Source: Cupriavidus metallidurans CH34 (lineage in GTDB: Bacteria > Pseudomonadota > Gammaproteobacteria > Burkholderiales > Burkholderiaceae). From it: 64,000 nt of DNA. Below, piece by piece: positions 10,696 to 55,875 of this stretch; the stretch's first letter is position 1; the number at the start of each line of letters is the position of its first letter. Position numbers and translations under genes: made by a program. The stretch lies in contig NC_007974.2 of NCBI RefSeq assembly GCF_000196015.1, positions 1,364,001 to 1,428,000 on the forward strand, read 5' to 3'. The notes below the pieces were generated by a model. That model saw only the letters and a list, made by a program, of their open reading frames with translations, had not been told where the DNA came from and made no database searches.

Positions 10696-11565
10696 ATGTC
10701 CCACCCGATCGAATCCACTCCTGACCGCCTCTCCGGCTTGCTGGAGCGCTTCCGCGTTCGCGCCCACCTGTTCCATACCGGGGCGCTCTGCGGGATCAGC
10801 CGGTTCGATGTGAAGGAACGCGGATTCCTGCACGTGCTGCGCGAAGGCCATCTGACGCTCTCGCACTCGGCCCGTGGCCTGCCTCGGCGCATGGAAATCC
10901 GCGAACCGTCCCTGCTGTTCTATCCGCGGCACGTCGTCCACACCTTCCACAATCCGCCGATCGAAGGCTCGCAGTTCACCTGCGCCACGCTCGAGTTCGC
11001 CGGAGGTGCAATGAACCCGGTTGCGAGGGCCCTGCCCCCGCTGATCGTGTTGCCGCTGGCGCGGGTCGAGGGGCTGGATGCCGCGCTATCGCTGCTGTTC
11101 GCCGAGACCGGGCGTGTCCGCTGCGGCCAGCGGCTGCTGGCAGACCGCTTGTTCGAGGTCGTGCTGATCCAGCTACTGCGCTGGATGCTCGATCATCCGG
11201 CCGATGCAGGCATCCAGGCGGGCCTGATTACCGGGCTTTCCGATCCGCGACTGGCCCGCGCACTGGTGGCGATGCACGAAGCCCCTGGCGAGACCTGGAA
11301 CCTGGACCGCATGGCGTCCTGCGCCGGCATGTCGCGCAGCGCATTCGCCTCCGCCTTCCGCGAAATCGTGGGACAAACGCCAGCCGACTACCTGGCCGGC
11401 TGGCGTATCAGCCTTGCACAGGCCCGGCTGCGTGATGGCGTACCGATCAAGCTGCTGGCCAACGAACTTGGGTATGCCAACCCCTCTGCGCTGTCGCGTG
11501 TTTTCGCGGCCAAAGTTGGCAAATCGCCACGGGAATGGCTGCAGACGCAAGCCTCCGAGCACTAG
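10696..11565 (+). CDS. AraC-family transcriptional regulator (cupin type)
   Basis: 289 aa. An N-terminal cupin-like sensor domain (about 20-180, with HVLREGHLTLSH and FYPRHVVHTF) precedes two C-terminal helix-turn-helix motifs (about 190-285, with MASCAGMSRSAFASAFREIVG and ANELGYANPSALSRVFAAKVG). It is divergent to the CMD gene, the standard arrangement for a regulator activating its neighbour. An effector cannot be read from the sequence. Confidence 0.88.
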   Translation: MSHPIESTPDRLSGLLERFRVRAHLFHTGALCGISRFDVKERGFLHVLREGHLTLSHSARGLPRRMEIREPSLLFYPRHVVHTFHNPPIEGSQFTCATLEFAGGAMNPVARALPPLIVLPLARVEGLDAALSLLFAETGRVRCGQRLLADRLFEVVLIQLLRWMLDHPADAGIQAGLITGLSDPRLARALVAMHEAPGETWNLDRMASCAGMSRSAFASAFREIVGQTPADYLAGWRISLAQARLRDGVPIKLLANELGYANPSALSRVFAAKVGKSPREWLQTQASEH

Positions 11566-11577
11566 ATTCAGCCGTTG

Positions 11578-11596
11578 AATTCTGCAATGCAGAATT
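11578..11596. promoter_or_regulatory. Palindromic operator upstream of iclR-type gene
   Basis: AATTCTGCA-A-TGCAGAATT is a perfect 9-1-9 inverted repeat 242 bp upstream of the IclR-family start. IclR-type regulators commonly bind short AT-rich palindromes of this kind, so autoregulation is likely. A TTGACA-like -35 lies nearby at about 11613. Confidence 0.6.
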
Positions 11597-11838
11597 ATGA
11601 TTCCGCGCTGCGGTTGACAATTGCCGAGTATCGGTGGGACGATTCGACTCATCGAATACCGGTGAGTCATCAACACCGGACGCCTTACCCGGAGACATCA
11701 TGCGTAGTACCGCAGTACCCGCGAACCGTTCTGGTCTCGCGTCCTTCCCCCTTTTCGCAAGACCACGCCTGCTCGCAGGCACCACCATCCAGGCGAAGCT
11801 GCACGTGCAACTTGCCACGGGCAAAGAGTGAGCACGCC

Positions 11839-12663
11839 ATGGAAGATGTGATCGAAATGGCGGAGATCGCCGCCGCACCCAAGGAAAGCAAACGCAAGGA
11901 AGACCGCCATTTCGTGACCGCGCTGGCGCGTGGTCTGGATGTGCTGGCGTGCTTTCGTGCATTCGACAGCGAACTTGGCAATGCCGAACTCGCCAAGCGC
12001 TGTGGCCTGCCGAAATCGACGATTTCGCGCCTGACCCACACGCTGACCGAACTTGGCTACCTCCAGGCCCTGACGGACCCCGTTCGTTACCGCCTGGGCA
12101 GTTCCGCACTGGCGCTGGCGCCCGCCGCGCAGCAGGGTGCAGAGGTCCTGGCGGTGGCGCGGCCCTACATGCAGGAATTGGCGGATTTGTCGCAAGGCGT
12201 CGCCTCACTGATCGTGCGCGACCGCGGACGTATGCTGGTATTCGAGAACTGCCAGTCCGAGACCTACCTGACTCTGCGCGTCGCCGTGGGAAGCCGCGTA
12301 TCGGGGCTCAATACGGCAGCAGGCCGTGCCTACCTGGTGGCATTGCCGCCAGCCGAGCAGCGTCAGGCGCTAACGGCATTCCGCACGGACGAGAAGGTCG
12401 CCCCTGCCGAAGCAGAAGCCATCCTCGCGAACAGCCGTGACGAGCAACGCCGGCTTGGCTGCACCACGTCGTTTGGTGAATGGCTGCCCGACATCAATTC
12501 GATCGCCCACGCGTTCCGGCCGGGTCCCTCATTGCCCCCGATGACGCTGAGCTGCAGCGGTCCCAATGCGATCGTGCCGCCAGCCCATCTGCTGGAGAAA
12601 GTGCGTCCGCTGCTGCGTGACCATATCCGCAAGATCGAAGCCGCGTTCGGTGTCACACGGTAA
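11839..12663 (+). CDS. IclR-family transcriptional regulator
   Basis: 274 aa from ATG 11839. Winged helix-turn-helix at about 28-90 (ALARGLDVLACF, LAKRCGLPKSTISRLTHTL), then an IclR effector domain to the end with DRGRMLVFENCQS, VGSRVSGLNTAAGRAYL and the LGCTTSFGEW region. Family members sense small aromatic or carboxylic acids. The frame continues to 11575, but that part overlaps the palindrome and looks non-coding. It is followed after 97 bp by a CHMI-type isomerase gene, which suggests an aromatic-acid link. Confidence 0.88.
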   Translation: MEDVIEMAEIAAAPKESKRKEDRHFVTALARGLDVLACFRAFDSELGNAELAKRCGLPKSTISRLTHTLTELGYLQALTDPVRYRLGSSALALAPAAQQGAEVLAVARPYMQELADLSQGVASLIVRDRGRMLVFENCQSETYLTLRVAVGSRVSGLNTAAGRAYLVALPPAEQRQALTAFRTDEKVAPAEAEAILANSRDEQRRLGCTTSFGEWLPDINSIAHAFRPGPSLPPMTLSCSGPNAIVPPAHLLEKVRPLLRDHIRKIEAAFGVTR

Positions 12664-48419: not shown

Positions 48420-49061
48420 TCAGACCTTCCGCAACTGGGCCGCCTCTTCGGCCAGCTTGCGGATTCGCCCCCAATCCTTCGCCGCAACCGCATCCTTCGG
48501 CACCACCCACGAACCGCCTACGCACACAACGTTGGGCAAGGCCAGATAGTTGGGCGCTTTCGCCAGATCGATACCTCCAGTCGGGCAGAATTTGAGCTGA
48601 GAGAACGGCCCGTGCAGCGATTTCAGCATCTGCACGCCCCCGGCTGCCTCCGCCGGGAAGAACTTCAGGAATGAGAAGCCCGCTTCGAGCGCGAACATCG
48701 CCTCGCTCGCAGTCGCCACGCCCGGCAGCAGCGAAATACCCGCATCTTGAGCGCCATCGGCCAGCTTCTGCGTCAGCCCAGGCGACACCGCGAACTGAGC
48801 GCCAGCATCACGTACCGCCTGGAGTTGGTCAGTCGTCAGGACGGTTCCCGCGCCGACCACTGCTTCCGGCAAGGCCTTGGCGACGGCTTCCATCGCCTGC
48901 AATGCCACCGGTGTGCGCAGCGTGATCTCAAGCAGCGGCAGGCCTCCGGCCACCAAGGCCTCGCTGATATGCAGCGCGTCGTCGACGGAGTGGTATTCGA
49001 GCACCGGAATCACCGGCACATTGGTCAGTCGTTCGAGCAGAGGGGAAGCGTGGATGGGCAT
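48420..49061 (-). CDS. eda: 2-keto-3-deoxy-6-phosphogluconate aldolase
   Basis: 213 aa from ATG 49061. It splits KDPG into pyruvate and glyceraldehyde 3-phosphate (cytoplasmic, Entner-Doudoroff). Catalytic Glu45 (LEITLRT) and Schiff-base Lys133 (FLKFFPAE) are at the same positions as in the E. coli enzyme; AGTVLTTDQ and FCPTGGI complete the barrel. It is last in the D-serine-dehydratase-like, kdgK, eda series, 103 bp after kdgK. That gap contains an 8-bp tandem repeat. Confidence 0.95.
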   Translation of the reverse strand: MPIHASPLLERLTNVPVIPVLEYHSVDDALHISEALVAGGLPLLEITLRTPVALQAMEAVAKALPEAVVGAGTVLTTDQLQAVRDAGAQFAVSPGLTQKLADGAQDAGISLLPGVATASEAMFALEAGFSFLKFFPAEAAGGVQMLKSLHGPFSQLKFCPTGGIDLAKAPNYLALPNVVCVGGSWVVPKDAVAAKDWGRIRKLAEEAAQLRKV

Positions 49062-49080
49062 GACGGATCTTCGATAAATT

Positions 49081-49117
49081 GGTGCGTTGGTGCGTTGGTG
49101 CGTTGGTGCGTTGGTGC
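49081..49117. repeat. 8-bp tandem repeat in the kdgK-eda gap
   Basis: Four perfect GGTGCGTT copies (49081-49112) plus a partial fifth, about 20-55 bp upstream of the eda start codon. Slippage here would change the spacing between kdgK and eda or the eda leader. Confidence 0.85.
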
Positions 49118-49164
49118 AAGGGGCCGAATTGTCGTAAAACGGGACAAGGCTGTTGCCGAATGCA

Positions 49165-50100
49165 TCAGGCAATCACTGTGACGCCCTGCTCCAGCCGGGC
49201 CCGCACGGTTTCGGCATGGGGGATAGGCGCCACGGCCCCATAACCCGTGGTCGACAGCGCGGCGGCAATGTTGGCATAGCGAGCCGCATCGAACGGATCA
49301 GCGTCCGCAGCCAGCCGTGCGATGAAACTGCCGCCGAAGCAGTCGCCCGCGCCGGTGGCATCGACCGGACGTACGGGGAACGGCGCCACCAGCGCGCGCG
49401 ACTCCTGCGTGGCGATGTAACTGCCCTCTTCTCCGAGCTTCAGCGCAACCAGTTCCACACCGCAACCCAGCAGATAGTCGACGATCGCGTCGCGGTCATC
49501 GAGCCCGGTCAGGATCGTGATGTCGTCCCAGCTCGGCAGGCATATGTCGGTCAGGGAGAATGCCTCGCGCATGATGCCGCGCGCGCGGGCCAGCGACCAG
49601 AGCCGCAATCGCAGATTCGTGTCGAGCGATACTTTCGCCCCGGCCTTGCGCGCATGTTCCATCGCCGCCAGTCCTGCATCACAGGCGCTGGTGCTAATTG
49701 CCAGGCTGATACCGGAGAGATGCAGAAAGCGCGCCTGCGCGATGGTTGCCAGCGGCAACTGCTCATGGTGATAGCGGCTGGCCGCGGAACGCTCGCGCAG
49801 ATAGTCGAAGCGATGGCCGTGGTTGTCGTGGGAGACGAAATAAACCCCGGTGGGCGCAGAGGCATTGACCACCACGTGTCGGGTATCGACACGTTCCCGT
49901 GTCCACAACGCCAGCAACCGCTCACCGAAACTGTCGGCCCCTACTGCGGTGATATAGCCCGTGGTCGCGCCCTGGCGCGCGGCGGCAATGCAGAAATTGG
50001 AGGTATCGCCGCCAAAGCCCTGCAGGTAACGCGACGGATCGTCGGGCTGCTGGTTGAACTCGATCAGCGGTTCGCCATAGGCAAGGATATCGATACTCAT
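49165..50100 (-). CDS. kdgK: 2-keto-3-deoxygluconate kinase
   Basis: 311 aa PfkB-family sugar kinase. It phosphorylates KDG to KDPG. Motifs: LAYGEPLIEFNQ at the start, GFGGDTSNFCIAAARQG (substrate), and DATGAGDCFGGSFI with the catalytic Asp. GAGGAG precedes ATG 50100. It feeds the eda product next door and probably receives KDG from the lyase encoded 57 bp upstream. Confidence 0.92.
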   Translation of the reverse strand: MSIDILAYGEPLIEFNQQPDDPSRYLQGFGGDTSNFCIAAARQGATTGYITAVGADSFGERLLALWTRERVDTRHVVVNASAPTGVYFVSHDNHGHRFDYLRERSAASRYHHEQLPLATIAQARFLHLSGISLAISTSACDAGLAAMEHARKAGAKVSLDTNLRLRLWSLARARGIMREAFSLTDICLPSWDDITILTGLDDRDAIVDYLLGCGVELVALKLGEEGSYIATQESRALVAPFPVRPVDATGAGDCFGGSFIARLAADADPFDAARYANIAAALSTTGYGAVAPIPHAETVRARLEQGVTVIA

Positions 50101-50157
50101 CTCGGCTTCATCTCCTCTTCATTCCATTCGGTCTGGCCACAGGGACTGACACCGGGG

Positions 50158-51438
50158 TCAGAAGAACGTCTGAACAATGTCGATGACCTGGAACTGGCTG
50201 TCCAGCACGGGAATATGGCGCCACTTGTCGAAGGTCAGGCAAGGATGCGAGATATCAAAGGCAATCATATCGCCGACGCGGATGTCATCGCCAGCCTCGA
50301 TTTCCAGATAGGCGTGCTGATCCATCATGCCCGTCACTTTCCAGCGCGCCGGCGTGGCAACAGGGCCGGCCGCACCCGGACGATACATCTGCGCTGGTAT
50401 CGGCATGCCCGCATCGAACGCGGCATCCCGCTTGCCCATGCCGATGATGGCGCGGTTTGGCTCAGGAATCGACTGCACATAGGCCCAGAGCTGCAGCGCG
50501 GGCAGCAGGCCCTCCCGCATCTTCTGCGCCACCGGATTGCTCGCCAGGATGCGTTCCTGCGCCGCTCGATAGACGCCGACGTCGTGCGTCAGGTAGCACC
50601 CGGGACGCAGCACGATATCGATCGGCATCCCGATATCGGTGCGCGCGAACTCTTCGGCCACCACGTCGTACCATGCCGAGCCCGCGCCGGACATCACCAC
50701 CGGGCTGCGTCCGAAACGCCCCGCCGCGGCCAGTTCGCGCGTTACGGCCACCGTGCGCTGCAGAAGCTCGCGGATATCGGCTTCCTGCTGCAGCACGCCT
50801 TCATAGATCTCGACGCCAGCCAGCTTCAGGGCGTTCGGCCAGCGCGACAGCGCATCGAGCACGTCCGCCTGCTGCGCGGCATCGCGCACACCGGTCCGGC
50901 CGCCCTCCACACCCAGTTCCAGCAGCACCTGCAGCGTCTGACCACGCGCGTCGAAGAACGCGCCAAGCTGGTCGACGAGCGCGGCCGAATCTACCAGCGA
51001 GAAGAACTCGAATGACGGATCGGCGGCCAGCAGATCGGCAACGATCTCCATATTGCGCCGCCCCACAAGCTGATTGGCCATCAGCACGCGCTTGACGCCG
51101 TGCGCGGCTGCCGCCGCGGTCTGATGGGCGGTGGCCAGCGTGATGCCCCACGCGCCCTCGGCAAGCTGACGCGCGAACAGTTTCGGCGCCATCGTCGTCT
51201 TGCCATGCGGTGCCAGCTGCACGCCGTATGCGCCCATGAAATTGCGCATCCACTGCAGGTTGTGCGTCAGACGGTCTTCATAGAGCACTGCGGCCGGGAG
51301 ACTGAGCTCTTCGGCCAGCAGACGCCAGCCCGGCTGACCCGCCTCGGACGGCGTGAGCGGCGCGTCCAGACGCCCCATCGCCTTGTTCAGCGGATCGATC
51401 ATACCGGTCTGGTACTTTGTTTCACGCATGACTGACAT
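50158..51438 (-). CDS. D-serine dehydratase-like PLP enzyme, predicted D-glucosaminate dehydratase
   Basis: About 426 aa (ATG 51438 or 51429). A fold-type III, alanine-racemase-like barrel with the PLP Lys80 in LAPHGKTTMAPKLF and a C-terminal domain with the zinc pair His398-x-Cys400 (SHPC), as in DSD1-type D-serine dehydratases. These enzymes eliminate water and ammonia from beta-hydroxy D-amino acids. D-glucosaminate is such a compound, and its dehydration gives KDG, the substrate of the adjacent KdgK. The general class is secure; the substrate is inferred from context. Divergent from rpiR. Confidence 0.82.
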   Translation of the reverse strand: MSVMRETKYQTGMIDPLNKAMGRLDAPLTPSEAGQPGWRLLAEELSLPAAVLYEDRLTHNLQWMRNFMGAYGVQLAPHGKTTMAPKLFARQLAEGAWGITLATAHQTAAAAAHGVKRVLMANQLVGRRNMEIVADLLAADPSFEFFSLVDSAALVDQLGAFFDARGQTLQVLLELGVEGGRTGVRDAAQQADVLDALSRWPNALKLAGVEIYEGVLQQEADIRELLQRTVAVTRELAAAGRFGRSPVVMSGAGSAWYDVVAEEFARTDIGMPIDIVLRPGCYLTHDVGVYRAAQERILASNPVAQKMREGLLPALQLWAYVQSIPEPNRAIIGMGKRDAAFDAGMPIPAQMYRPGAAGPVATPARWKVTGMMDQHAYLEIEAGDDIRVGDMIAFDISHPCLTFDKWRHIPVLDSQFQVIDIVQTFF

Positions 51439-51474
51439 CACCCTGTCAAAATTCAATTGACGTAATGATAGCCT

Positions 51475-51492
51475 TGAAACTACGATATTTCA
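51475..51492. promoter_or_regulatory. Candidate RpiR operator
   Basis: TGAAA-N8-TTTCA is an inverted repeat in the 123-bp gap between the divergent lyase and rpiR genes. RpiR/MurR regulators often bind such TGAAA/TTTCA arms. It is placed to control both arms of the locus. Confidence 0.5.
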
Positions 51493-51561
51493 TCCTTGTT
51501 AGAAAGTAACATGCTTCGTCGGCCGAGGTGACCGGCGGGGCCCGCCCACCCACCGTACGCC

Positions 51562-52467
51562 ATGACCGCGCCCTTCGACATCCTGACCCGCATCGCCGAG
51601 CGTGGCCCGTCATTGCGACTGGCCGAGCAGAAAGTGGCGCAGGTGATCCTTGAGGATCTTGCAGGGGCGGCGGCTGCCAGCATCAACGAACTGGCACGCA
51701 AGGCGGCGGTCAGCGAGGCAAGTGTCACGCGCTTCGCAAAGGCCATCGGTTGCCGCGACGTCCGCGATCTGAAACTGCGCCTGGCACAAGCCACGGCAGT
51801 CGGATCGCGTTTCCTGCAACCGGCGCCGGGCCCGGTCGATACTGACGCACCGGCCGCGCTGGCCGAGCGCATCCACGCCGACGTTCTCGCCACGCTCGAA
51901 GTCAACCGAAAGCTGATCGATCCCGAGCGGATTGACATTGCCGCGCGCCTGTTACTCAACGCACGCATGGTCTACGCTTTTGGCATGGGTGGAGGCTCGA
52001 CCTTCATGGCCGACGAGGCGCGGTATCGGCTGGCGCGATTGGGGCACCCGGTGGCCACGTATCACGACGCGCTGCTGCAGAAGATGGTCGCCGCAACACT
52101 GACGCGCGATGACGTGGTACTGGCGTTCTCGGCCAGCGGCAGCGTGCCGGAGATACTGGCCAGTTGCGATATCGCGCGCGAGTATGGCGCGCGGCTGATT
52201 GCCGTGACCGCGCTTGGCTCGCCGCTGGCCGCGCGCGCCGACGTGCTCCTGCCCGTGCGGACGCTGGAAACGGATTTCATCTTCAAGCCGTCGGCCTCGC
52301 GCTACGCGATGCTGATGGTGCTGGACGTACTGTCCACCCGCTTTGCGCTGCTGCAACAGGAGCAAAGCAAGGAAAAGTTGCGCCGGCTGAAATACGTGCT
52401 GGATGCCCACCGAGGCGTCAGCCAGGACAGCGACGGGCCGGACAGCCGCCAGCCGCTCGGAGACTGA
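51562..52467 (+). CDS. RpiR/MurR-family transcriptional regulator
   Basis: 301 aa. An N-terminal HTH_6 domain (about 1-80, SINELARKAAVSEASVTRFAKAIGC) and a C-terminal SIS sugar-phosphate-binding domain (about 130-260, VYAFGMGGGSTFMADEARYRLARLG and VVLAFSASGSVPEI). Members usually sense phosphorylated sugars or sugar acids; here KDPG or KDG would be logical. Its stop codon is two bases before the deacylase start. Confidence 0.92.
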   Translation: MTAPFDILTRIAERGPSLRLAEQKVAQVILEDLAGAAAASINELARKAAVSEASVTRFAKAIGCRDVRDLKLRLAQATAVGSRFLQPAPGPVDTDAPAALAERIHADVLATLEVNRKLIDPERIDIAARLLLNARMVYAFGMGGGSTFMADEARYRLARLGHPVATYHDALLQKMVAATLTRDDVVLAFSASGSVPEILASCDIAREYGARLIAVTALGSPLAARADVLLPVRTLETDFIFKPSASRYAMLMVLDVLSTRFALLQQEQSKEKLRRLKYVLDAHRGVSQDSDGPDSRQPLGD

Positions 52468-52469
52468 CA

Positions 52470-53933
52470 ATGCCACACCTGTTCGATACCCTGATCCGCT
52501 GCGTGCTGCTGCTCGATGGCTCGGGCGCCGCGGCGCGCCTGGCCGACGTGGCGATCCGCGATGGCCGCATCGCCCGCATCGACGAGCCTGGCGCGATCGA
52601 CCCCGATTCCGCGTCAAACGTCGTGGAAGGTCACGGTCTGGTGCTCTCCCCCGGGTTCATCGATGTCCATACGCACGACGACACCAATGTCGTGCGTGAG
52701 CCGGCGATGACACCGAAGATCTCGCAAGGCGTGACCACTGTGGTCGTCGGAAACTGCGGCATCAGCGCCGCACCCGTCACGCTGGCCGGTGATCCACCCG
52801 ACCCGATGAACCTGCTGGGCCGCGCCGACGCGTTTCGCTACCCCGACTTCAAAACGTATGTGGCAGCCGTCAACGCCGCGAAACCAGCCGTAAACGTGGC
52901 CGCACTGGTCGGCCATACCGCGCTGCGCAGCAATCATATGGACAGGCTCGACAGGCCCGCGACCGAGGCCGAGACCGCCGCAATGCGCGGCCAGCTTCAG
53001 GAAGCCCTGGATCATGGCGCGCTTGGGCTTTCCACCGGCCTGGCATATGCCAACGCATTCCACGCTCCCACCGACGAAGTGCTGGCGCTGGCCGAACCGC
53101 TGGCCAAGGCAGGCGCGATCTACGCCACCCACTTGCGCAGCGAGTTCGCGGAGATTCTGGACGCGATGGACGAAGCCTTCCGCATCGGCCGGCACGCGCG
53201 CGTGCCGGTGGTGATCTCGCACCTGAAATGCGCGGGCGTGTCGAACTGGGGCCGTAGCGGCGAGGTGCTCGCCGCGCTCGAAGGCGCGGAGCGTTGGCAA
53301 CCGGTTGGCTGCGACTGCTACCCCTACACCGCCAGTTCGTCGACACTCGATCTCAAGCAGGTCACCAACGACTTTGACATCCAGGTCACCTGGTCCGAGC
53401 CGCATCCCACGATGGGTGGCCGGCTGCTGGCCGATATCGCCGCCGAGTGGAACGTCGACCTGCTTGAGGCGGCACGGCGCCTGCAGCCTGCCGGCGCCGT
53501 CTATCACTGCATGGAGGATGCGGACGTCGATCGCATCCTGAGCCATCCTGCCACCGTGGTTGGGTCCGACGGGCTACCCAACGACCCGCTACCGCATCCG
53601 CGCCTTTGGGGCGCATTTCCACGCGTGCTGGGCCACTACGCGCGCGATCGCGAACTGTTCCCGCTCGCGGTGGCCGTCAACAAGATGACTGGCATGTCGG
53701 CCGAGCGCTTCGGCCTGACCGGTCGCGGCTTCGTGCGCGAAGGCTACTGGGCCGATCTCGTTCTGTTCGACGCCGCCACGATCCGCGACGCGGCGAGCTT
53801 CACCGATCCGCAGCAACCGGCCGAAGGCATTGCGGCCGTCTGGGTCAACGGCGAGTTGACATGGCGGCAACGCGCCGCCACCGGCGTACGCGCCGGCCGC
53901 TTCCTGCCACGCGGCACCCAGCAACAACACTGA
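52470..53933 (+). CDS. N-acyl-D-amino-acid deacylase
   Basis: 487 aa amidohydrolase that removes the acyl group from N-acyl-D-amino acids. The zinc ligands of D-aminoacylases are all visible: His67 and His69 (DVHTHDD), Cys96 (VGNCG), the His of YATHLRSE, the His of VISHLKCAG and the Asp of VVGSDGLPN. Numbering matches the Alcaligenes enzyme at the first three. The start lies two bases after the rpiR stop and 14 bp separate it from ridA, so one operon. In this context N-acetyl-D-glucosaminate is a plausible substrate. Confidence 0.9.
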   Translation: MPHLFDTLIRCVLLLDGSGAAARLADVAIRDGRIARIDEPGAIDPDSASNVVEGHGLVLSPGFIDVHTHDDTNVVREPAMTPKISQGVTTVVVGNCGISAAPVTLAGDPPDPMNLLGRADAFRYPDFKTYVAAVNAAKPAVNVAALVGHTALRSNHMDRLDRPATEAETAAMRGQLQEALDHGALGLSTGLAYANAFHAPTDEVLALAEPLAKAGAIYATHLRSEFAEILDAMDEAFRIGRHARVPVVISHLKCAGVSNWGRSGEVLAALEGAERWQPVGCDCYPYTASSSTLDLKQVTNDFDIQVTWSEPHPTMGGRLLADIAAEWNVDLLEAARRLQPAGAVYHCMEDADVDRILSHPATVVGSDGLPNDPLPHPRLWGAFPRVLGHYARDRELFPLAVAVNKMTGMSAERFGLTGRGFVREGYWADLVLFDAATIRDAASFTDPQQPAEGIAAVWVNGELTWRQRAATGVRAGRFLPRGTQQQH

Positions 53934-53947
53934 AAACAGGAGTTTCC

Positions 53948-54340
53948 ATGGATATCAAACGATTCGGCGTCGAAGGTGGCACCGGCCAGGGCGGCTCGCA
54001 CATGCCGTTCGCACGCGCCGTGCAAGCGGACGGCTGGCTCTACGTGTCGGGCCAGGTACCGATGGTCAACGGCGAAGTCATCGACGGCGGCATCGTCGCG
54101 CAGAGCCACCAGGCCATTCAGAACGTCATGGCCATCCTGGCGGAAGCCGGCTACGGCCCGGAGCATGTGGTTCGCTGCGGCGTCTGGCTGGACGATGCCC
54201 GCGACTTCACGTCGTTCAACAAGATCTTCAAGGAATACTTCGGCGCCAATCCGCCGGCCCGGGCCTGCGTGCAATCGAGCATGGTGGTCGACTGCAAGGT
54301 CGAAGTGGACTGCATCGCTTACAAGAAACCGGCGGCCTGA
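53948..54340 (+). CDS. RidA-family imine/enamine deaminase
   Basis: 130 aa with CAGGAG before ATG 53948. The YjgF/YER057c/UK114 fold with YVSGQVPMVNG, AQSHQAIQNVMAILAEAGYG and the substrate-binding Arg in NPPARACVQSSMVV (Arg-x-Cys). RidA proteins hydrolyse the reactive enamine or imine released by PLP-dependent dehydratases. Its place in an operon opposite such a dehydratase fits that role well. Confidence 0.9.
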   Translation: MDIKRFGVEGGTGQGGSHMPFARAVQADGWLYVSGQVPMVNGEVIDGGIVAQSHQAIQNVMAILAEAGYGPEHVVRCGVWLDDARDFTSFNKIFKEYFGANPPARACVQSSMVVDCKVEVDCIAYKKPAA

Positions 54341-54513
54341 ACCCGGCCGGCGTGGACGTGGTCGGCGAGCCAGCCGAGCCGGGGCCACAGCTTCATAGCT
54401 TTTTAGCTTTTCCAGCTTTCTCAACCCGCCGCTACGCGACACAAGGCATAGCGGCTTTTTCACACGCGGAAGCGGACCGTCCGGACCGGCGGCACCCGCA
54501 AAAAGGAGACGAC

Positions 54514-55875
54514 ATGGGTGCCGTTACAGGAACCACGCTCTTGGTCTATGCGCTGATCGCCGTGATCGCGCTGGTGATCCTGATCGCCAAATTCAAACTG
54601 AACCCATTCATCACGCTCGTGGTGGTCTCGGTGGCGCTGGGCTTCGCCGTGGGGATGCCGATGGGCGACATCATCAAGTCGTTCGAAGCGGGTGTCGGCG
54701 GCACGCTCGGGCATATCGCGCTCGTGATCGGGCTCGGCACGATGCTTGGCAAGATGATGGCCGAATCGGGCGGCGCCGAGCGCATCGCGCTGACGCTGGT
54801 CGACTTCTTCGGCGAGAAGAACGTGCACTGGGCGATGGTGGTCATCGCCTTCATCGTCGGCCTGCCGGTGTTCTTCGAGGTAGGCTTCGTGCTGCTCGTC
54901 CCGATCGCCTTCAACGTCGCCAAGCGCACCAATACCTCGATGGTGCTGGTTGGCATCCCGATGGTCGCCGGCCTCTCGGTGGTGCACGGGCTGATTCCGC
55001 CGCACCCTGCCGCGCTGCTGGCTGTGCAGGCCTACGGCGCTGACATGGGCAAGACGATCATGTACGCGCTGATCGTCGGTGTCCCGACAGCCGCCATCGC
55101 TGGCCCGCTGTTCGCCAAGCTGATCGACCGCCACGTGAAGCTGCCCGAGGTCAACCCGCTGGCCGCGCAGTTCACCGAAGAAGCCGAGAACATCAAGGCC
55201 ACGCGCCAATTGCCAGGCTTCGGCATCACTGTCTTCACGATCCTGCTGCCGGTGATTCTGATGCTGATTGGTAGCTGGGCGGACCTGATTGCCACGCCGA
55301 AGACCTTCGCCAACGACTTCCTCAAGCTGATCGGTAACTCGGTCATGGCACTGCTGATCGCCGCGCTGGTCAGCTTCTATACCTTCGGCAAGGCCCGCGG
55401 CTTCGGTCGCGATGCGATCCTGAAGTTCACCAACGAGTGCGTGGCGCCGACCGCCATCATCACCCTCGTGGTGGGTGCCGGCGGTGGCTTCGGCCGCATC
55501 CTGCGCGACTCCGGCATCTCCACCGCCATCGTCGACGTGGCAACCCACGCAAACGTCTCGGTGCTGGTATTGGGCTGGCTGGTGGCCGTGATGATCCGCA
55601 TCGCCACCGGCTCGGCCACCGTGGCCATGACCACCGCCGCCGGCATCGTCGCCCCGATCGCCGCCAGCGTGCCGGGCACGCGCCCCGAACTGCTGGTGCT
55701 GACGACCGGCGCCGGTTCGCTGATCCTGTCGCACGTCAACGACGGCGGCTTCTGGCTGGTCAAGGAGTACTTCAACATGACCGTGACCCAGACCTTCAAG
55801 ACCTGGTCGGTCGCCGAAACGATCATTTCGGTCGTGGCGTTGCTACTGACGCTGGGACTGGCGACGGTGACCTGA
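54514..55875 (+). CDS. GntP-family gluconate-type permease
   Basis: 453 aa with AAAAGGAG upstream. About twelve membrane helices and GntP signatures: KLNPFITLVVVSVALGFAVGMP, GLPVFFEVGFVLLVPIAF, GLIPPHPAALL and RIATGSATVAMTTAAGI. GntP members import gluconate and related sugar acids. It is last in the rpiR operon (173 bp after ridA), so it probably brings in the substrate of the deacylase or lyase. Confidence 0.92.
   Translation: MGAVTGTTLLVYALIAVIALVILIAKFKLNPFITLVVVSVALGFAVGMPMGDIIKSFEAGVGGTLGHIALVIGLGTMLGKMMAESGGAERIALTLVDFFGEKNVHWAMVVIAFIVGLPVFFEVGFVLLVPIAFNVAKRTNTSMVLVGIPMVAGLSVVHGLIPPHPAALLAVQAYGADMGKTIMYALIVGVPTAAIAGPLFAKLIDRHVKLPEVNPLAAQFTEEAENIKATRQLPGFGITVFTILLPVILMLIGSWADLIATPKTFANDFLKLIGNSVMALLIAALVSFYTFGKARGFGRDAILKFTNECVAPTAIITLVVGAGGGFGRILRDSGISTAIVDVATHANVSVLVLGWLVAVMIRIATGSATVAMTTAAGIVAPIAASVPGTRPELLVLTTGAGSLILSHVNDGGFWLVKEYFNMTVTQTFKTWSVAETIISVVALLLTLGLATVT

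Follow-up and report, generated by a model that had tools for sequence, protein, structure and literature searches.

A predicted ong-type cluster for N-acetyl-D-glucosaminate catabolism, with a GntP permease gene, in Cupriavidus metallidurans CH34

Why should a gene of the N-acyl-D-amino-acid deacylase kind share a locus with genes for 2-keto-3-deoxygluconate (KDG) metabolism? The question is raised by seven open genes that fill positions 48420-55875 of a 64,000-nucleotide stretch of Cupriavidus metallidurans CH34 (NC_007974.2, positions 1,364,001 to 1,428,000; the whole stretch is called the window below), part of a 6.9 Mb genome in four contigs; the nearest named relatives of its lyase are Cupriavidus. 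An earlier note, drawn up from the sequence alone, had read them as a divergent array converting N-acetyl-D-glucosaminate to D-glucosaminate, KDG, 2-keto-3-deoxy-6-phosphogluconate (KDPG) and finally pyruvate plus glyceraldehyde-3-phosphate. That route turns out to be the published pathway of N-acetyl-D-glucosaminate (GlcNAc1A), with the same enzyme families, and we put at roughly 0.87 the probability that the cluster is a cytoplasmic GlcNAc1A catabolic module of the ong kind, in a scavenger form. Microbial cleavage of chitin leaves GlcNAc1A as an oxidised terminal sugar. Order and strands of the genes are as the note had them, and Pfam agrees for every one (PLP, pyridoxal 5'-phosphate; KDGal, 2-keto-3-deoxygalactonate):

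48420-49061, minus strand: eda, KDPG aldolase (Pfam Aldolase; NCBIfam TIGR01182 over cut-off; LKFFPAE at 132)
49165-50100, minus strand: kdgK, PfkB-family KDG kinase (Pfam PfkB; best NCBIfam match KDG/KDGal kinase)
50158-51429, minus strand: ongC-like, PLP D-glucosaminate ammonia-lyase/dehydratase, DSD1-like (Pfam Ala_racemase_N and D-ser_dehydrat)
51562-52467, plus strand: ongR-like, MurR/RpiR regulator, rpiR below (Pfam HTH_6 and SIS)
52470-53933, plus strand: ongB, predicted GlcNAc1A deacetylase (Pfam Amidohydro_3; residues; clade)
53948-54340, plus strand: ongD, RidA-family protein, ridA below (Pfam Ribonuc_L-PSP; PAR motif at 103-105)
54514-55875, plus strand: gntP, sugar-acid/H+ symporter, probable importer of GlcNAc1A and D-glucosaminate (Pfam GntP_permease; TIGR00791 over cut-off)

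The deacylase and its partner enzymes

For the deacylase a structural reference exists: OngB of Pseudoalteromonas prydzensis (PpOngB) has been solved with GlcNAc1A, and Ser292 and Gln298 matter for its specificity (Wang 2025, PMC12017989). When the window protein was compared with the Protein Data Bank (PDB) by phmmer, the rank order was 9g5m, PpOngB and AfDam, with identities of 60%, 55% and 50%, respectively. All metal and catalytic residues (H68, H70, C97, H222, H252 and D368, PpOngB numbering) and all GlcNAc1A-pocket residues (A193, A256, S290, S291, S292 and Q298) are present, and among 20 PpOngB positions compared the window protein departs only at 348. The D-aminoacylases AfDam and BbDam share its fold family, metal ligands and catalytic Asp but differ in the specificity pocket, where the window protein has that of OngB (by residues, in a comparison made with AfDam); at position 298 AfDam has Arg in our alignment and Leu according to the paper, probably owing to a loop shift. 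A maximum-likelihood tree of 58 rows (39 from the wide sample and 15 chosen from the named loci, both defined below, plus PpOngB, AfDam, 9g5m and the window protein; BbDam was left out) contains a 44-row clade, with 100/100 support, that unites the window deacylase, PpOngB and 9g5m. The latter branches beside L133, a locus with OngC, OngD, OngR, an SSF transporter and Eda. AfDam is placed outside this clade, as are two further D-aminoacylase-type copies from the same genome (L118 at C4:1783139 and L119 at C4:1035068; about 49% identity), which lack the set Ala193/Ala256/Ser292/Gln298 that we used as a four-residue signature; a distant RidA-like match (30%) lies near L119. By these residues and this clade the window deacylase is well supported as a predicted GlcNAc1A deacetylase of the OngB type, and the earlier proposal that it accepts N-acetyl-D-glucosaminate gains support from the specificity residues.

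The motifs that we take to mark active sites are present in the lyase (PHGK starting at 74, SHPC at 394), the kinase (GAGD at 250) and the aldolase (LKFFPAE), and, together with the 19 of 20 PpOngB positions kept in the deacylase, agree with the note's claim of intact active sites. Their constancy was judged in a named set made up of the best 80 of 290 lyase relatives, in which the lyase is present in all 80 by construction: PHGK and HPC occur in 80/80 named lyases, GAGD in 69/69 named kinases and the PAR motif of RidA in 75 of 76 named loci, and KFFPAE, which the window eda matches, in just 31/46 named aldolases. Ralstonia-type eda, about 58% identical to that of the window, may be a separate lineage. 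The lyase matches PDB entry 3gwq over its full length (606 bits) and, more distantly, D-threonine aldolase and D-threo-3-hydroxyaspartate dehydratase. Given the first of these matches, 3gwq, whose entry names it a D-serine deaminase, may in fact be a lyase for D-glucosaminate. An old D-glucosaminate dehydratase of Pseudomonas fluorescens was reportedly a PLP enzyme with an Mn2+ requirement, which would fit the lyase fold. The best solved relative of kdgK is the KDG kinase 1wye. Curated NCBIfam cut-offs are passed by eda and gntP, and the best models of kdgK, ridA and rpiR fall below theirs.

The ong pathway was described in P. prydzensis ACAM 620 (Jiang 2022, PMC9537276), in which OngB deacetylates GlcNAc1A, OngC converts the resulting D-glucosaminate (GlcN1A) to KDG with release of ammonia, KDG is phosphorylated by KdgK, and OngR, of the MurR/RpiR type, represses ongCRBD and ongOT-1. 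The core biochemistry is thus already published, and the novelty that the note attached to the route falls away; two earlier Cupriavidus papers had also linked a lyase or deaminase and kdgK with glucosaminate. The genome paper of C. necator JMP134 predicted glucosaminate use in Cupriavidus/Ralstonia (PMC2842291), and a transcriptome of Ralstonia eutropha H16 lists H16_B1211-B1213 as glucosaminate-degradation genes plus eda (PMC3734047). By their description these are probably the same lyase-kdgK-eda operon; the passages concerned are silent on the deacylase, RidA, GntP and GlcNAc1A. No work on GlcNAc1A in Cupriavidus was found among the papers listed from the open-access literature searched.

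The OngB deacetylase, OngC lyase, OngD (RidA), KdgK and RpiR-type OngR of P. prydzensis all have counterparts in the window, all but OngB being assigned by family and synteny. The two clusters differ in that the eight-gene cluster of P. prydzensis has an SSS transporter (OngIT), a TonB-dependent receptor (OngOT-1) and a GH20 enzyme (OngA) and is without an aldolase gene, in a genome with a lytic polysaccharide monooxygenase (LPMO) and chitinases (PMC9537276), whereas in the window GntP replaces the SSS transporter and eda lies within the lyase operon. SSF genes of the OngIT type are absent from the window cluster (the rest of the genome was not searched for them); OngA has no match genome-wide, and no OngOT-1 receptor is among the seven genes (receptors elsewhere were not searched). 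Like the window, the ong clusters of the Gammaproteobacteria Vibrio, Klebsiella and Serratia include an aldolase gene, kdgA; all ong genes but ongOT-1 are described there as highly conserved, and the main text of the paper leaves GntP unmentioned (PMC9537276).

The scheme that we propose takes the OngB, OngC and KdgK reactions, the need for OngD and repression by OngR from relatives in which they were demonstrated, and the gene set, residues, conservation and operator from sequence comparison; what we infer ourselves is the cargo of GntP, the chemistry of RidA, the effector of OngR and the scavenger lifestyle. GntP would import GlcNAc1A, and probably D-glucosaminate. OngB would take acetate off GlcNAc1A to give D-glucosaminate; OngC would then eliminate the C3 hydroxyl to leave ammonia and KDG, with the RidA protein probably speeding hydrolysis of the enamine/imine or shielding enzymes from it. 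KdgK would convert KDG to KDPG, and Eda would split KDPG into pyruvate and glyceraldehyde-3-phosphate. OngR would repress both divergent operons through one palindromic operator until a pathway intermediate frees it. The part of RidA stands less firmly than the note had it when it let RidA resolve the imine: OngD is essential in vivo (its role being called unknown by the authors), but OngC produced both KDG and ammonia in vitro when OngD was absent (PMC9537276).

Conservation of the cluster and its importers

The neighbourhood search that the note had proposed found the same seven families together in 46/80 named loci (tblastn matches covering <40% of the query were excluded from all counts). 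A four-gene core of lyase, rpiR, deacylase and ridA is present in 75/80, on which chance gene clustering was rejected; the core with gntP is found in 72 and with both gntP and kdgK in 67. The five loci without the core comprise two on short contigs (L054 and L059), one with no rpiR match (L082), and two in which the stretch covered has the lyase but matches to neither rpiR nor deacylase (L078 and L079). Loci with the core and gntP are found repeatedly in Cupriavidus, Ralstonia, Herbaspirillum and Collimonas, and in C. necator the full set of seven genes is present at three loci (L029, L030 and L032). The position of eda varies: it follows kdgK in Cupriavidus loci and in L008, named Ralstonia, lies beyond gntP in the other Ralstonia-named loci where seen, and went unmatched in the stretches from Herbaspirillum and Collimonas. 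Silvimonas terrae (L035) has GntP plus GH20 nearby.

A wider sample of 398 genomes of the phylum gave a deacylase match at E <= 1e-100 in 41 genomes, at 46 places, of which 39 were examined (the seven others are the main copies in the window genome, G009 and G015, together with G125, G241, G302 and G311). The signature is present in 25 of these 39 deacylases. Among the 25 signature-positive loci OngC was found in the stretch in 21, OngD in 21 and OngR in 22; among the 14 signature-negative loci each was found once. The four-residue signature predicts a nearby OngC lyase (Fisher P = 3.5e-6, an optimistic value as the genomes are related and no correction for relatedness was made). One sampled locus, L146:4680-10995, combines an OngC-like lyase (46%), a deacylase without Ser292/Gln298, a DGOK-family kinase, an Eda-like aldolase (34%) and a MalK-type ATP-binding cassette (ABC) ATPase, and may encode a sister route that acts on a different N-acetyl aldonic acid.

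The importer looks exchangeable, since GntP or SSF is present in 21 of the 25 signature-positive loci (8 and 13, respectively; neither in 4) and the two never occur together; the GntP of the window is therefore one of several importers found with the module. GH20 occurs in 6/25, each time with SSF. Among the four loci with neither importer, an ABC ATPase gene adjoins OngD in L131, and a major facilitator superfamily gene is in the stretch in L122 and L124. In the ong-like cluster of L128 a DGOK-family kinase gene (11496-12356) adjoins an SSF gene.

The genes that flank the cluster are loosely tied to it (counted at >60% identity over the 80 named loci, with stretches of unequal length): the next gene downstream, for a periplasmic binding protein, recurs in 16, an upstream gene that we take to be of EAL type in 6, and a gene that we take to be CNNM-like in 35. 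A perfect 8-bp tandem repeat, TTGGTGCG x 4.9, lies between eda and kdgK at 49079-49117.

The shared intergenic region and the regulator

The note saw an RpiR-like palindrome in the shared promoter, and we compared 77 lyase-rpiR intergenic regions (from 76 named loci and the window, taken with 30 coding bases at each end; many are close relatives). Conservation was highest for the palindrome TGTTACTTTCTAACA (minus-strand reading), which is the probable operator. The features of the region are:

51497-51511, no strand assigned: probable OngR operator, TGTTA-N5-TAACA palindrome (conservation; sole exact genome match)
51457-51486, plus strand: promoter-like TTGACG-18-TACGAT, rpiR operon (consensus match)
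51465-51493, minus strand: promoter-like ATGAAA-17-TATCAT, lyase operon (consensus match only)

TGTTA-N5-TAACA is found in 63/77 regions, and perfect-arm sites of this form in 64/77 after L063 and L077, where the site falls in lyase coding sequence, were dropped from 66; mononucleotide shuffles, a control that keeps single-base content only, give 0.3 such sites. In Amantichitinum both arms are changed together (TGATA...TATCA), and Ralstonia-type loci have one imperfect arm, TGGTACTTTGTAACA. The 8-mer TTGACGTA, in the rpiR promoter-like region, occurs in 59/77 regions. Another candidate, the perfect repeat TGAAAT-N6-ATTTCA, was rejected, being present in 12/77 regions versus 63. The palindrome lies closely downstream of the promoter-like site on the plus strand and upstream of that on the minus strand, a layout that fits joint repression of the two operons. 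A wider regulon was rejected, since the window copy is the only exact match in the genome, with one other place at 2 mismatches, and a control pattern gave 2.

The nearest NCBIfam model of rpiR is HexR, with 179 bits against a cut-off of 296. On contig C3 a gene that comes nearer to HexR (257 bits, still short of the cut-off) adjoins edd, and OngR was accordingly rejected as the main HexR of the genome. The effector of HexR is KDPG. With the only KDPG aldolase gene found lying under OngR, this HexR-like regulator may also sense KDPG, although the extension from HexR is a guess.

Rival substrates and the place of the module in Cupriavidus

The rival that survives best holds that in nature the cluster mainly serves the use of free D-glucosaminate (and gluconate), with N-acetyl-D-glucosaminate as a secondary substrate; we consider it unlikely, though not negligible. 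The GntP family speaks for it, as do earlier papers that label such genes glucosaminate degradation (PMC2842291, PMC3734047) and the phenotypes of relatives, for which the substrate in the papers was D-glucosaminic acid and not GlcNAc1A: it was used by 9/10 Collimonas strains (PMC11288634) and, on EcoPlates, by all eight betaproteobacterial types among bromeliad isolates, some of them Cupriavidus- or Ralstonia-related (PMC4905999). However, the deacylase accompanies the lyase in 76/80 named loci, which were found through the lyase, and the GlcNAc1A pocket is kept.

Far less probable is a role in the use of N-acyl-D-amino acids together with D-serine/D-threonine (peptidoglycan being one example of a source), with KdgK and Eda as incidental neighbours. 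Both deacylase and lyase do fall in D-amino-acid enzyme families, and OngC also deaminates D-serine and D-threonine in vitro (PMC9537276), so that activity on D-serine, one part of a refuting condition in the earlier note, is no refutation of the GlcNAc1A reading by itself. Yet the pocket residues are those of the GlcNAc1A deacetylases, which had no detectable activity on N-acetyl-D-amino acids (PMC12017989), and kdgK is present in 71/80 named loci. Moreover, Collimonas humicola RLT1W51, which has gntP, ridA, deacylase, rpiR, lyase and kdgK on contig L080, is Biolog-positive for D-glucosaminic and gluconic acid and negative for D-serine, which 1/10 strains in the same table used (PMC11288634). 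On the residue signature, synteny and Biolog data we rejected D-amino-acid catabolism as the main role. Least probable of all is that the substrate is a different N-acetyl-hexosaminate, for instance the galacto or the manno epimer. The epimers could undergo the same chemistry, and some relatives carry a DGOK-family kinase instead, but the C3- and C5-hydroxyl contacts Ser292, Ser290 and Gln298 are the same as in PpOngB and the window kinase is nearest to KDG/KDGal kinases (a match that would also suit the galacto form).

Several observations weigh against GlcNAc1A catabolism as the function of the cluster. In the deacylase, position 348 is Cys, for Gly in PpOngB (Asn in 9g5m), and one protein inside the OngB clade (L138, 8004; second copy in G366) is without the signature. 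Four signature-positive loci of one genus (L125, L126, L155 and L156) have OngB with OngR and GntP and neither OngC nor OngD within about 8 kb; their deaminating enzyme must lie elsewhere or differ. KdgK reaches 184 of the 400 bits of its best NCBIfam model and RidA 95.4 of the 106.25 bits of TIGR00004, both below the cut-off. Only 3 and 4 of the 25 signature-positive loci have matches to KdgK and Eda, respectively; kinase and aldolase are therefore often elsewhere or of another family (e.g. the DGOK kinase of L128). In its own genome eda was found at one place only, in the presence of two edd genes over cut-off, and the lyase operon therefore probably also serves ordinary sugar use; gntP, too, was found at one place only and may therefore mainly serve gluconate. 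H16_B1211-B1213 were induced in the growth phase on fructose (PMC3734047). Finally, Collimonas arenae Cal35, the one strain of the ten that did not use D-glucosaminic acid, is gluconate-negative as well (PMC11288634), which would fit a shared importer or aldolase, and the Biolog result therefore cannot separate transport from catabolism.

The 2022 pathway was set within chitin degradation, mostly in marine Gammaproteobacteria, and a figure legend has Achromobacter piechaudii as the only betaproteobacterium among the complete-pathway strains (PMC9537276); Aeromonas is reported to have only distant or no OngB/OngC matches (PMC11653859). The window genome gave no AA10 LPMO, GH18 or GH20 match (GH19 was not searched), and a complete oxidative chitin utilisation pathway of AA10 LPMO and chitinases was thus not found in it. 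A pyrroloquinoline quinone glucose dehydrogenase as local source of glucosaminate was rejected, there being one weak match and none over cut-off in this genome. Across 60 Cupriavidus genomes the deacetylase (E <= 1e-150) is present in 57, one partial, and an AA10 LPMO match in 10 (of which one is weak and has stops and another has a single stop), each time alongside the deacetylase; the AA10 step is therefore usually absent. We infer that the organism scavenges GlcNAc1A.

Against the open-access papers listed, what is new is the GntP form, the placing of the sole eda found in the pathway operon and the spread among Burkholderiales, largely without AA10 LPMO as counted in the one genus Cupriavidus. 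From those counts the use of GlcNAc1A probably reaches well beyond chitin degraders. More tentatively, and with the odds rather against it, the GntP-type ong module without LPMO could be a widespread cross-feeding trait of Burkholderiales, most Cupriavidus living partly on the oxidised chitin ends made by others, and OngR, by sensing KDPG, might couple GlcNAc1A use to Entner-Doudoroff flux. The exchangeable importer poses a testable question of transport, and the reading of the cluster would help to re-annotate proteins now filed as D-serine deaminase or N-acyl-D-amino-acid deacylase.

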